Part shown: positions 46,789 through 49,754 of the stretch, piece after piece | Layout: every line of letters starts with the position of its first letter | Numbering within the stretch: the first letter of the stretch is position 1 | Assembly: GCA_002304445.1 (NCBI GenBank) | Contig: NEVA01000003.1 | Coordinates: 1 to 64,000, forward strand | Direction of reading: 5' to 3' | DNA from: Opitutia bacterium Tous-C4FEB | GTDB lineage: Bacteria > Verrucomicrobiota > Verrucomicrobiia > Opitutales > Opitutaceae | Length of the DNA stretch: 64,000 bases | Notes under the pieces: model-generated | Database searches by the model: none | Seen by the model: the letters and a program-made list of their open reading frames with translations, nothing else | Told to the model about the DNA's origin: nothing | Position numbers and translations under genes: made by a program

Positions 46789-47748
46789 CTATTTGGAAAA
46801 CCGTGAGCGGGCGCGTTCCAGCCGGCTATATACATCCTTGGCCGGCAGTAATTTCAAATCACCCACCGGCGCCTGAACCACAAAATTGGTCGGACCATTT
46901 AACGGATACGGGCCAAACAAACGCGGATCGGTCGGCCCAAAAATACCCATCGTACGCACTCCCTGGGCCGCGGCCAAATGCATCGGGCCGCTGTCGTTCG
47001 TGATCACCCACTCCGCCCGCCGAATGAGCGCGGGCAATGAAACCAAACTCGTGTTCCCCGTGAGATTCAAAAACTGTGCGGCCGAAAACGAATTTCGATC
47101 CGGCAGGTAATTGCTACCGGCCCAGACCACTTTGCGCGAGCGATCTTCCTTCAGCAGCAACTCGGTGAGTTGCTTGAATCCGCCCCAACGCTTCTCAACG
47201 CGGCGACTGTCGGGAAACATCAGAACCGGCTTTGCGCCGCCCCGACCATCGGTGAACTTCAAGTTCAAGCTCTCCGCCTCGCGGAATTTAAGAACCCCGC
47301 TCAGCTCCGGTTTCACCCCGAGGACCGGACAAAATTGCAGAAGAATGTCGATCGCATGGCTGCGGCGACCGTCCGGCGGTAGTGGCACCTTTTCGTCGTA
47401 AAAGATTCCGGCCATTTCCCGCGCATCCGTGCGGCCCACCTTTTTTTTGGCCAGCGCCCGCGACGTCATCAAGCCCGTGCGCAGCAAACCCTGAAAATCG
47501 AAAACGTAATCGAACTTTGTCTTCCGCACCTCGGCCATCAGCTTGAGAAACGCCTTGGCTCCTCCCGCGCGCTCGAACACGAACACCTCGTCTACCGCTT
47601 CGCATACCTTGACGAGCGGGGCGAACATCTCGCGCACGATCCAAGAAATTCTCAGGTCGGACCGATGCGCCTTTAGCGTCGTCGCGACCTGCAGACCGTG
47701 GACAATATCGCCCAACGACGAAGGCTTGATGATGAGAAGTTCGGTCAT
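46789..47748 (-). CDS. Glycosyltransferase family 9 (heptosyltransferase I-like)
   Basis: The 319-residue GT-B enzyme matches WaaC-type ADP-heptose:LPS heptosyltransferases: the N-terminal IIKPSSLGDIVHGL, VVWAGS before the nucleotide-sugar site, and the C-terminal TNDSGPMHLAAAQGV and FGPTDPRLFGPY. In Gram-negatives such enzymes add the first heptose to the Kdo of lipid A-core. It is divergent from, and 98 bases away from, a gene fusing an acyltransferase with a second GT9 domain, which supports a role in lipopolysaccharide assembly. Confidence 0.9.
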   Translation of the reverse strand: MTELLIIKPSSLGDIVHGLQVATTLKAHRSDLRISWIVREMFAPLVKVCEAVDEVFVFERAGGAKAFLKLMAEVRKTKFDYVFDFQGLLRTGLMTSRALAKKKVGRTDAREMAGIFYDEKVPLPPDGRRSHAIDILLQFCPVLGVKPELSGVLKFREAESLNLKFTDGRGGAKPVLMFPDSRRVEKRWGGFKQLTELLLKEDRSRKVVWAGSNYLPDRNSFSAAQFLNLTGNTSLVSLPALIRRAEWVITNDSGPMHLAAAQGVRTMGIFGPTDPRLFGPYPLNGPTNFVVQAPVGDLKLLPAKDVYSRLERARSRFSK

Positions 47749-47846
47749 GCGTGGGGCGGATAGGGCAAAGAGAATCTGCTTTTAACCGCGCGAGGGTTAC
47801 GTTTGATGGCGTTTCCCGGCCAAATTCAAAGCCAAATCCCGCACGC

Positions 47847-49754
47847 GTGCTCACTCTTCTGCTCAAGACTCTCGGTTGGCTCGCTGCACACTGCCCCGAA
47901 TCGGTCTTACACTCCTTTTCCGCGGTTCTCGGCGATGCCGTTTTCTTTGGCCTCCCCCGGCGACGTCGGCTCGCGTTGTCGAATCTCCACCACGCGTTCC
48001 CCGAACGCTCCGAAACGTGGCATCGCGCGACCGCGCGCGAGAGCTTTCGTCGTCTGGTTGAAACCGGACTGCTTTCGCTCGCGACCCCTTTTTTGAGCGA
48101 ATCACGGCTGCGGACGATCGTCTCCGTCTCTCCCTCTCTGCTCGAAGCCTACGCTCAACACCGCCTGGAACCGGCCGCCACGCTCATCTGCTCCCCCCAT
48201 ATTGCCTACTGGGAGGCCCAGACGGCCAAACCCCTTTTGATTCCAGGACCGTTCCCCGAGTTTGGCATTATCTTTCGGCCGCTCGACAACCCGACGGCCA
48301 ACGCATTCGTCGTAGGTTCGCGCGAGCGCTTTGGGATGAAACTGCTCTCCCGCAAGACCGGCTTTGCCGAGGCTTTGAAGATTCTTCGCCGTCAGGGCTT
48401 CGTGGGAGTTCTCTTCGATCAGAATGCCGGCCTGCAAGGCGCCCTGACCACCCTCTTCGGTCGCGTTTGTTCCACCACGGAACTGCCCGGGCTCATGGCC
48501 GAAAAATTCTCCGCCCGCGTTTTTGGAATCTATCCACGTCGGCTCGGATTCTGGCGTGTCGAGATTGGCTGTGCCTCCATCGCCCACGACAACAGCAGCA
48601 CCGGGGTCACTCTCGCGCTCAACCGTTGGCTGGAGAATTTACTGACGGGCGATTCTGATGTGTGCGCGTCTTGGCTTTGGTCCCACGATCGATGGCGCAA
48701 TCAGGACATGCCGTCGCAGCGGTTCCGCCTCGCCGCCAAACGCGACCTGCTCCAGGCCGACCTTGCGGCGCGTAACTTGAGCGACCTCCCCCGCCGGACC
48801 CGCATTTTCGTGCGCCTGCCCAATTGGCTTGGCGACGTGGTCATGGCCTTGCCGCTGCTCCGCGCGTTACGCGTTTCGCGGCCCGACGCCGAACTCACAT
48901 TCATCGCCGCGCCCGCGCTCCTTCCATTGATTCGCGAGTGGGCGATCGCCGATCATCTCGAAGGCCTACCCAAACGCGGTTTTGGCTATTTCCTGCATTT
49001 CTGGCGTCTCCGCAGTCGATACCCTGACGTCGTCTTGCTCCTCACCAATTCGTTTCGCGGCGACTTGGAAGCATGGCTGACGTGCAGTCCGCAACGCTTT
49101 GGACTCGTGCGCCGCGGTTGTCGCCGCCCCCTTTTGTCTCACGCCTATCGGCCTTCCGCAGACTTTGATGAGGCCGGTCATCACCAAACCGCTCTTTGGG
49201 AAAACATGTTCCGCCATTTCGGCCTCGAAGCTCAACCCGACCGGTCTCCCGTTCTTGCTCGGCGAGAACATCCGGGAACTACGATCGGGTTGATTCCGGG
49301 ATCGGAAAACAACCCCGAAAAACGCTGGCCGGTTCTTCATTGGCGTGCCCTGATCGCCGGTTTGCCCGAGCAAAAGTTCGTGCTGTTCGGCACCCCGCGC
49401 GACGCGGCCATCACCGCCGAAATCGCCCGAGGATTTCCGCCAGGCCGAGTTGAAGATCTTGCCGGCCGGACGGATCTTGTCACGTACGCCGCTCACCTTC
49501 GCCAAAGCCGCCTGCTTGTCGCCAATGACACGGGTGGCATGCATCTCGCCAACGCTCTAGGCGTGCCGCTCATCGCCCTCTTCGGACCGACCAACCCCCT
49601 TCGCACCGGCCCAATTTTTTCAGCTCCGACCCGTGTTTTACAACCGCCGGGTTGCCCGCCTACCGGCGGAGGTTCACTCCTCAATCTTGACCCGACCACC
49701 GTCATCGTCGCGGTCCGGGAAATGACCTCAGCAACTCACTTCGGAGCGGTTTGA
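47847..49754 (+). CDS. Fusion of LpxL-type lipid A acyltransferase and GT9 heptosyltransferase
   Basis: A single frame of 635 codons encodes two full enzymes. Residues about 1-300 are an LpxL/HtrB-type acyltransferase: N-terminal hydrophobic helix, the RRRLALSNLHHAFPE segment and the catalytic HX4E motif in PHIAYWE (His118), with FDQNAG later. From about residue 318 a GT9 domain follows: FVRLPNWLGDVVMALPLL, IGLIPGSE and NDTGGMHLANALGVP with FGPTNPLRTGP. The GTG at 47847 fits the LpxL N-terminus; a GTG at 47751 would add 32 residues of unprotein-like sequence. The product probably couples acylation of lipid A with core heptose addition at the inner membrane. Confidence 0.92.
   Translation: MLTLLLKTLGWLAAHCPESVLHSFSAVLGDAVFFGLPRRRRLALSNLHHAFPERSETWHRATARESFRRLVETGLLSLATPFLSESRLRTIVSVSPSLLEAYAQHRLEPAATLICSPHIAYWEAQTAKPLLIPGPFPEFGIIFRPLDNPTANAFVVGSRERFGMKLLSRKTGFAEALKILRRQGFVGVLFDQNAGLQGALTTLFGRVCSTTELPGLMAEKFSARVFGIYPRRLGFWRVEIGCASIAHDNSSTGVTLALNRWLENLLTGDSDVCASWLWSHDRWRNQDMPSQRFRLAAKRDLLQADLAARNLSDLPRRTRIFVRLPNWLGDVVMALPLLRALRVSRPDAELTFIAAPALLPLIREWAIADHLEGLPKRGFGYFLHFWRLRSRYPDVVLLLTNSFRGDLEAWLTCSPQRFGLVRRGCRRPLLSHAYRPSADFDEAGHHQTALWENMFRHFGLEAQPDRSPVLARREHPGTTIGLIPGSENNPEKRWPVLHWRALIAGLPEQKFVLFGTPRDAAITAEIARGFPPGRVEDLAGRTDLVTYAAHLRQSRLLVANDTGGMHLANALGVPLIALFGPTNPLRTGPIFSAPTRVLQPPGCPPTGGGSLLNLDPTTVIVAVREMTSATHFGAV

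Follow-up and report, generated by a model that had tools for sequence, protein, structure and literature searches.

The window, a stretch of 64,000 nucleotides from Opitutia bacterium Tous-C4FEB (contig NEVA01000003.1), carries a gene in which an LpxL-type acyltransferase and a GT9 heptosyltransferase-like domain share one open frame, with a second GT9 gene running divergently from it (Table 1). The frame extends from a GTG at 47751 to the TGA at 49752-49754 (667 residues) with no internal stop, and the GTG at 47847, from which a sequence-only reading of the locus had started the protein, is residue 33 of this longer frame.

Table 1. Features of the fused gene and its surroundings. Residue numbers, as well as the range 419-628 given in the text, count from the GTG at 47751 (frame P0001).
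Feature	Position	Strand	Basis or remark
Fused gene, putative LpxL-type acyltransferase + GT9 heptosyltransferase, 635 aa from GTG 47847	47847..49754	+	
LpxL / Lip_A_acyltrans domain, residues 32-316	47844..48698	+	PF03279
HX4E catalytic motif H-I-A-Y-W-E	48198..48215	+	conserved His, Glu
Interdomain linker, residues 317-349	48699..48797	+	gap between domain matches
GT9 (WaaF-like) domain, residues 350-660	48798..49730	+	PF01075, TIGR02195, 1psw
WLGD motif Asp, aligned with GD Asp of WaaF/WaaC	48834..48836	+	invariant, 20 sequences
NDTGGMH motif, aligned with NDSGLMH of E. coli WaaF	49524..49544	+	20-sequence alignment
Divergent GT9 gene, WaaC (heptosyltransferase I) type	46789..47748	-	PF01075 92.7 bits
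Apparent conserved intergenic DNA between the divergent genes	47751..47846	.	Ks vs L033-L035, alignment

The start at 47847 is supported by the substitution pattern, since codons 1-31 of the longer frame gave low Ks values (0.09, 0.16 and 0.22 against the related loci L033, L034 and L035), where the remaining parts of the gene ranged from 0.94 up to saturation. Against L032, the Ks was 0.05 for codons 1-31 and also 0.04 for the linker, and the contrast is not decisive for this pair. The longer start at 47751 was rejected, because codons 1-31 carry no coding signal against L033-L035 and L066 has a stop there. Positions 47751-47843 thereby look like conserved intergenic DNA and not protein, and the interval between the divergent genes probably holds two promoters. 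In this interval no sigma-70-like site was found, and there was no Rfam match above the gathering score. In many relatives it shows the pattern AGAATCTGCTTTTAA ... AAATCAAA ... CAAAT.

The N-terminal half (residues 32-316) matches PF03279 with 86.1 bits, above the Pfam cut-off of 22.3. Its HX4E motif, PHIAYWE (His codon 48198-48200, Glu codon 48213-48215), is accompanied by RRRLALSNLHHAFPE; HIAYWE aligns with HFLTLE of E. coli LpxL, and the His and Glu do not vary across a set of 20 aligned sequences that includes the window's own. Every NCBIfam LpxL-type model listed scores below its cut-off for the protein (the best, PRK08419, 72.8 against 248; TIGR02207, 46.9 against 297.8), and we therefore file it as LpxL-type under no named equivalog. 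Compared with LpxL/HtrB (PF03279; solved relative LpxM, 5kn7), the window protein has the complete domain, the HX4E motif, further invariant residues and the fold in common, but carries an added C-terminal glycosyltransferase domain. The fused gene is the sole PF03279 match in its genome.

The C-terminal half matches PF01075 at residues 419-628 (96.7 bits, above the Pfam cut-off of 22) and has all of the WLGD, KRW and NDTGGMH motifs. The residues invariant in the 20 sequences are, in the numbering of that alignment analysis, H119, E124, D331, K493, R494, W495, N561, D562, G564 and H567; within NDTGGMH the N, D, T, G, G and H are invariant and the M nearly so. The catalytic motifs of the window align with those of E. 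coli LpxL, WaaF and WaaC. The open frame, the Pfam matches and these alignments bear out the original observation of an LpxL-type and a GT9 domain in one frame with both motif sets intact. The GT9 domain is complete, as had been proposed, but it begins at about residue 350 instead of about 318, the residues from 317 to 349 forming a linker. It resembles WaaF/RfaF (GT9, PF01075; 1psw) in its complete GT-B domain, its GD, KRW and NDTG-MH motifs and its fold and, less firmly, in its side of the tree, but it is no separate protein, starting about 317 residues into an LpxL protein.

Which heptosyltransferase it represents is a less firm assignment. The GT9 domain of the window scores 107.5 bits to TIGR02195 (heptosyltransferase II), below the NCBIfam cut-off of 134.6. 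In the GT9 tree the fused domains fall on the WaaF (HepII) side (91/90), on an unstarred branch and with a long branch to E. coli WaaF, and the branch into the fused clade of the window's order is itself long (1.53 changes per column). This placement is less firm than that of the divergent neighbour with WaaC. Because of the score under the cut-off and the unstarred branch, the sugar and the acceptor are uncertain. The same score and the long branch would fit a fused GT9 that transferred a sugar other than heptose, or acted at a core position other than that of heptose II. We regard this as unlikely, given that the genome contains donor-making genes, that WaaF is the best structural match (below), and that one fused orthologue, L110, which belongs to a different order, exceeds the TIGR02195 cut-off with 212.1 bits, although L102 from the window's order fails it (111.7); these two were the other intact fusions scored. 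The automatic naming of L110 (2696-4714, + strand) may hide its LpxL half, since it passes the NCBIfam heptosyltransferase II cut-off.

The divergent neighbour is another GT9 enzyme, as the sequence-only reading had it, and groups with E. coli WaaC in the GT9 tree (100/100). It thus shares the clade of WaaC/RfaC, yet its TIGR02193 score of 129.4 bits lies below the cut-off of 185.3. With this gene beside WaaC and the fused domain on the WaaF side, the earlier suggestion that both heptose steps may be encoded here holds up. A divergent GT9 gene adjoins the fusion in 54 of 70 loci, a few of which are one gene fetched twice; 13 loci lack it, two are cut by contig ends and one is without a full fusion. 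The genome of the window has four GT9 matches including the fused one, a WaaA (174 bits), an HldD above its cut-off (378.7 bits against 274.6) and an HldE domain I (kinase) just below its own (334 against 345), and the ADP-heptose donor is probably made in this organism. The other neighbours of the fusion are ftsH, tilS, serS, two oligopeptide-type transporter ATPases, a trmL-type gene and thrB, and the locus is therefore no LPS cluster.

An AlphaFold2 model of the fusion, built from a 20-row alignment, had a mean pLDDT of 86.6 and a pTM of 0.77, providing the structural view that the sequence-only reading had called for. Using VIA-align, the best structural match was E. coli WaaF (1psw; Z 29.9, rmsd 2.5, 298 aligned, model residues 319-633), and A. 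baumannii LpxM (5kn7) matched model residues 35-348 (Z 24.8, rmsd 2.6, 252 aligned), indicating that both halves are whole folds as modelled. Model residues 284-294, at the start of the linker, have a pLDDT below 50, and the model thus does not give the relative placement of the two domains. No solved single chain with both domains was among the VIA-align matches listed, which follow a Foldseek ranking that entries can escape.

The same domain order, which had been proposed as the thing to look for in other Verrucomicrobiota, is widespread. Of 41 related loci, all on other contigs, 40 have the two domains in a single frame; in the remaining locus (L071) a contig end cuts the gene before the GT9 part, and one of the 40 (L069) begins at a contig end and is without about the first 94 residues. 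When 387 genomes of the phylum were searched with the fusion profile and the matches were counted by row, both domains were found in one open frame in at least 44 genomes, all in the window's class among the matches listed: at least 19 of 37 within the window's family, at least 11 of 26 elsewhere in the order and at least 14 of 63 elsewhere in the class. These counts treat G116 and G207 as fusions though they were matched in two or three pieces. Two further genomes of the 63 came on top of them in follow-up, with L123 (G295, 865 aa) and L186 (G322, 653 aa). Among the matches listed, 18 of the 37 sampled genomes of the family have no match over both domains, and the 261 genomes outside the class have no row over both halves, though weak cases may escape such a search. 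Two proteins from outside the class were left out of the follow-up, a 766-aa frame around PF03279 (G056, contig C9) and one of 565 aa (G245, contig C92). Beyond the phylum, where plasmid records only were searched, none of 66 matching records covered 80% of the query.

A join of two genes by an assembly, sequencing or frameshift artefact was rejected on these grounds, as the single frame recurs on 40 of the 41 other contigs and in at least 44 of the 387 genomes; the chance of such an error is negligible. No frameshift or stop separates the domains, and each half has recognisable active-site motifs. The Ka/Ks values for the LpxL and GT9 parts were 0.10 and 0.13 against L032, 0.076 and 0.137 against L033, and 0.065 and 0.136 against L034; for L035, where the Ks of the LpxL part was saturated, the GT9 Ka/Ks was 0.118. 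By this measure both halves of the fusion are under purifying selection. The Ka/Ks of the linker (33 codons) was uneven over the four pairs (0.68, 0.26, 0.11 and 0.14).

In an LpxL tree of 87 domains, all 56 rows from fused, motif-less, truncated or short proteins formed one clade (100/98). Its sister group consisted of 16 single-domain LpxL from other classes, and 14 single-domain LpxL from the same family, order or class grouped with E. coli LpxL (100/97). The 30 single-domain loci offered to the trees were the best-scoring ones and no random draw. The genera of those 14 seem to have had their fused gene replaced. A quick tree with 19 added rows kept the clade, now of 67 rows (SH-aLRT 99): eight added single-domain LpxL fell outside it, and the 11 added rows inside it were one intact fusion and ten with a short tail or none, four of the ten from family f2. 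The 34 fused GT9 domains did not form one clade in a free GT9 tree, but constraining them to one was not rejected (p-AU 0.389). Taken together, the LpxL clade and the GT9 constraint make a single fusion event at or near the base of the class, followed by several decays of the GT half with the acyltransferase half kept, the simplest reading of the sequences, short of proof.

The LpxL of L124, L125 and L188 (f1, g8/g4) and of L195, L204, L207 and L208 (f2) group with the short-tailed LpxL of f10, which suggests that LpxL was transferred between families, namely between the f1 and f2 members of the window's order and f10. In genus g41 of family f11, none of the four sampled genomes (G042, G054, G072 and G152) has a PF03279 match and GT9 genes remain, G042 having three GT9 matches despite this absence.

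Three loci of family f1 (L126, L127 and L128; genera g6 and g11) have an E. coli-like single LpxL, one TGA and then a GT9 in the same frame, in genomes with no full fusion among the matches listed, where the fusion was apparently replaced. Stop readthrough from lpxL into GT9, for which the frames are in phase, was rejected for these loci: L127 and L128 have a TGA, three bases (GCC) and an ATG between the two genes, an ordinary boundary, and in L126 the ATG of the GT9 gene lies farther off and the LpxL is of another type. Such adjacent unfused genes in other genera of the family (L127 and L128), though with the other LpxL type, would agree with a coincidental merger of neighbours whose product is two independent enzymes with no functional coupling, as would the repeated loss of the GT half. 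We nevertheless consider it rather unlikely that the fusion means nothing more, as it has been kept across several orders and a GT domain that lost its motifs is still under purifying selection (below).

All three GT9 motif patterns were found in 87 of 100 rows with both domain matches, several rows being repeat fetches of one gene. Among the 13 exceptions (L075, L145, L146, L106, L179, L175, L176, L177 and L117-L121), L075 is cut by the end of the locus, one pattern was not found in L145, and the frame of L146 is split; L106 and L179 are the same gene, of genome G080. Four exceptions from four families (L175, L176, L177 and L179) keep only the N-terminal GT9 part, have lost the GD motif and score 27.7-126 bits to the GT9 model. 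These losses are four changes on the tree, of which the starred branches force three (87-domain tree) or two (quick tree). Five groups (G080, f7, f8, f9 and g37) thus have a GT9 half that is cut short or has lost its motifs. This half is reduced or absent in f10 genera, f1 g4 and g8, f2 rows and L135: in the f10 genera and in f1 g4 and g8 the tail measures about 100-171 residues and gives a slight GT9 signal or none, and in L135 (295 aa) it is almost gone. Tethering is therefore dispensable in several groups, and the decay of the GT half where the acyltransferase half stays implies that the two predicted activities are not strictly coupled. If heptose transfer was lost in such lineages, the retention of the domain, or of the half of it on the acceptor side, points to a second role of the GT half in acylation.

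The motif-less genus g37 is very probably Akkermansia, and its genome G113 very probably A. muciniphila ATCC BAA-835. We examined 12 of its 23 sampled genomes (L117, L118, L119, L120, L121, L190, L193, L197-L199, L202 and L205), checking the GD position by alignment in all 12, and found the GD, KRW and NDTGxMH columns changed or missing in every one. In 11 of them Asp-Glu or Glu-Glu replaces GD (Asp to Glu), KRW is changed and AVDG replaces ANDTG, and 11 of the 12 frames still measure 637-754 aa; the exception in length, L205 (539 aa), is without the C-terminal half. Over 21 pairs among seven close g37 sequences, the Ka/Ks of the tail was 0.10-0.22 and that of LpxL 0.07-0.13; tail comparisons with the distant L117 gave 0.29-0.41 with high or saturated Ks. 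The plain reading of these values is that the tail is a selected pseudo-glycosyltransferase, a candidate pseudo-heptosyltransferase.

In G113, PF03279 is matched once, by the gene whose tail has lost its motifs (L119, 3048-4973, + strand), and PF01075 twice, once by this tail. The second GT9 protein (324 aa) has intact GALGD, YKRW and NDTG motifs and adjoins an HldD (404 bits). A. muciniphila oligosaccharides are described as having three Kdo and one heptose (PMC13135019; PMC12527988), and one heptose in the core fits a single active heptosyltransferase. The main text of PMC12527988 gives the lipid A of strain HW07 as tetra-acylated, cites that of BAA-835 as tetra- to hexa-acylated, and names one low-identity LpxL (23.7%). 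This proposed LpxL, JFJHEM_01585 of HW07, is probably the orthologue of L119, since G113 has only one PF03279 match. That main text mentions no C-terminal glycosyltransferase-derived domain, fusion, waaF, waaC, rfa or glycosyltransferase.

The decay series bears on what the GT half does. The GT9 half might chiefly serve the acyltransferase, as a module that docks the acceptor or has a regulatory part, with its own activity secondary and lost in several lineages, which now hold a pseudo-glycosyltransferase or remnants of the N-terminal half. The 12 g37 proteins with altered motifs, 11 of them in frames of 637-754 aa, and the low Ka/Ks of the seven close tails would fit this, as would the retention in L175, L176, L177 and L179 of the N-terminal GT9 part, the acceptor side in GT-B enzymes. 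We hold this possible but lean against it, because the three GT9 motifs in the window and in the 87 rows make it seem that catalysis is selected there. In addition, the Asp to Glu change in 11 of the 12 g37 proteins is mild and some activity may persist, and L135 and several f10, f2 and f1 rows manage with little or no GT9 remnant.

We think it likely that the window protein is a bifunctional LpxL-WaaF enzyme of LPS assembly, and the best reading is that its GT half also serves the acyltransferase. In well-known Gram-negative systems, late lipid A acylation and inner-core glycosylation are carried out by separate genes. The LpxL half would transfer a secondary acyl chain onto Kdo2-lipid IVA at the inner membrane, the divergent WaaC-type enzyme would add the first heptose, and the fused WaaF-type GT9 half would then transfer a second heptose from ADP-heptose onto the inner core. 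Tethering would hold both sites on one glycolipid. These reactions, their order and the catalytic roles are inferred from the enzyme families. The two tethered steps had been called consecutive, which does not agree with the E. coli scheme, where WaaC acts between LpxL and WaaF; what the two steps share is the growing Kdo2-lipid A molecule on which they act. Our searches of the open-licence literature showed no LPS structure of an Opitutaceae species.

The acceptor side of GT-B enzymes is held by the N-terminal half. The GT9 half could be imagined as a sugar-reading checkpoint that docks the inner-core acceptor, such that a single polypeptide would settle both lipid A acylation and the extension of the core, and the Akkermansia module, including that of A. 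muciniphila, as a selected pseudo-heptosyltransferase that only tunes acylation. We put this forward as a speculative and somewhat doubtful extension; it would fit the one-heptose core and the variable, tetra- to hexa-acylated lipid A reported for A. muciniphila.

Both enzyme families, LpxL and the GT9 heptosyltransferases, are well described. No LpxL-heptosyltransferase fusion was described in the titles and abstract openings listed in our searches of the open-licence literature, and domain databases may well show the pair. The phylum does have a precedent for gene fusion in the lipid A pathway, as lpxC-fabZ is given as a single gene in Bacteroidetes, Chlorobi and Verrucomicrobia (PMC3087551), but that fusion joins other enzymes, early in the pathway.

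Conservation of the fusion through several orders makes a coupling of acylation and glycosylation testable. Its decay series, from intact through truncated to motif-less but selected forms, is a natural experiment on how the GT half may serve the acyltransferase. The series extends to A. muciniphila, a gut symbiont that has been widely studied. Acylation of its lipid A is relevant to the immune effects of this species, and its LpxL homologue is in print as a low-identity one, the extra domain going unmentioned in that main text (PMC12527988).
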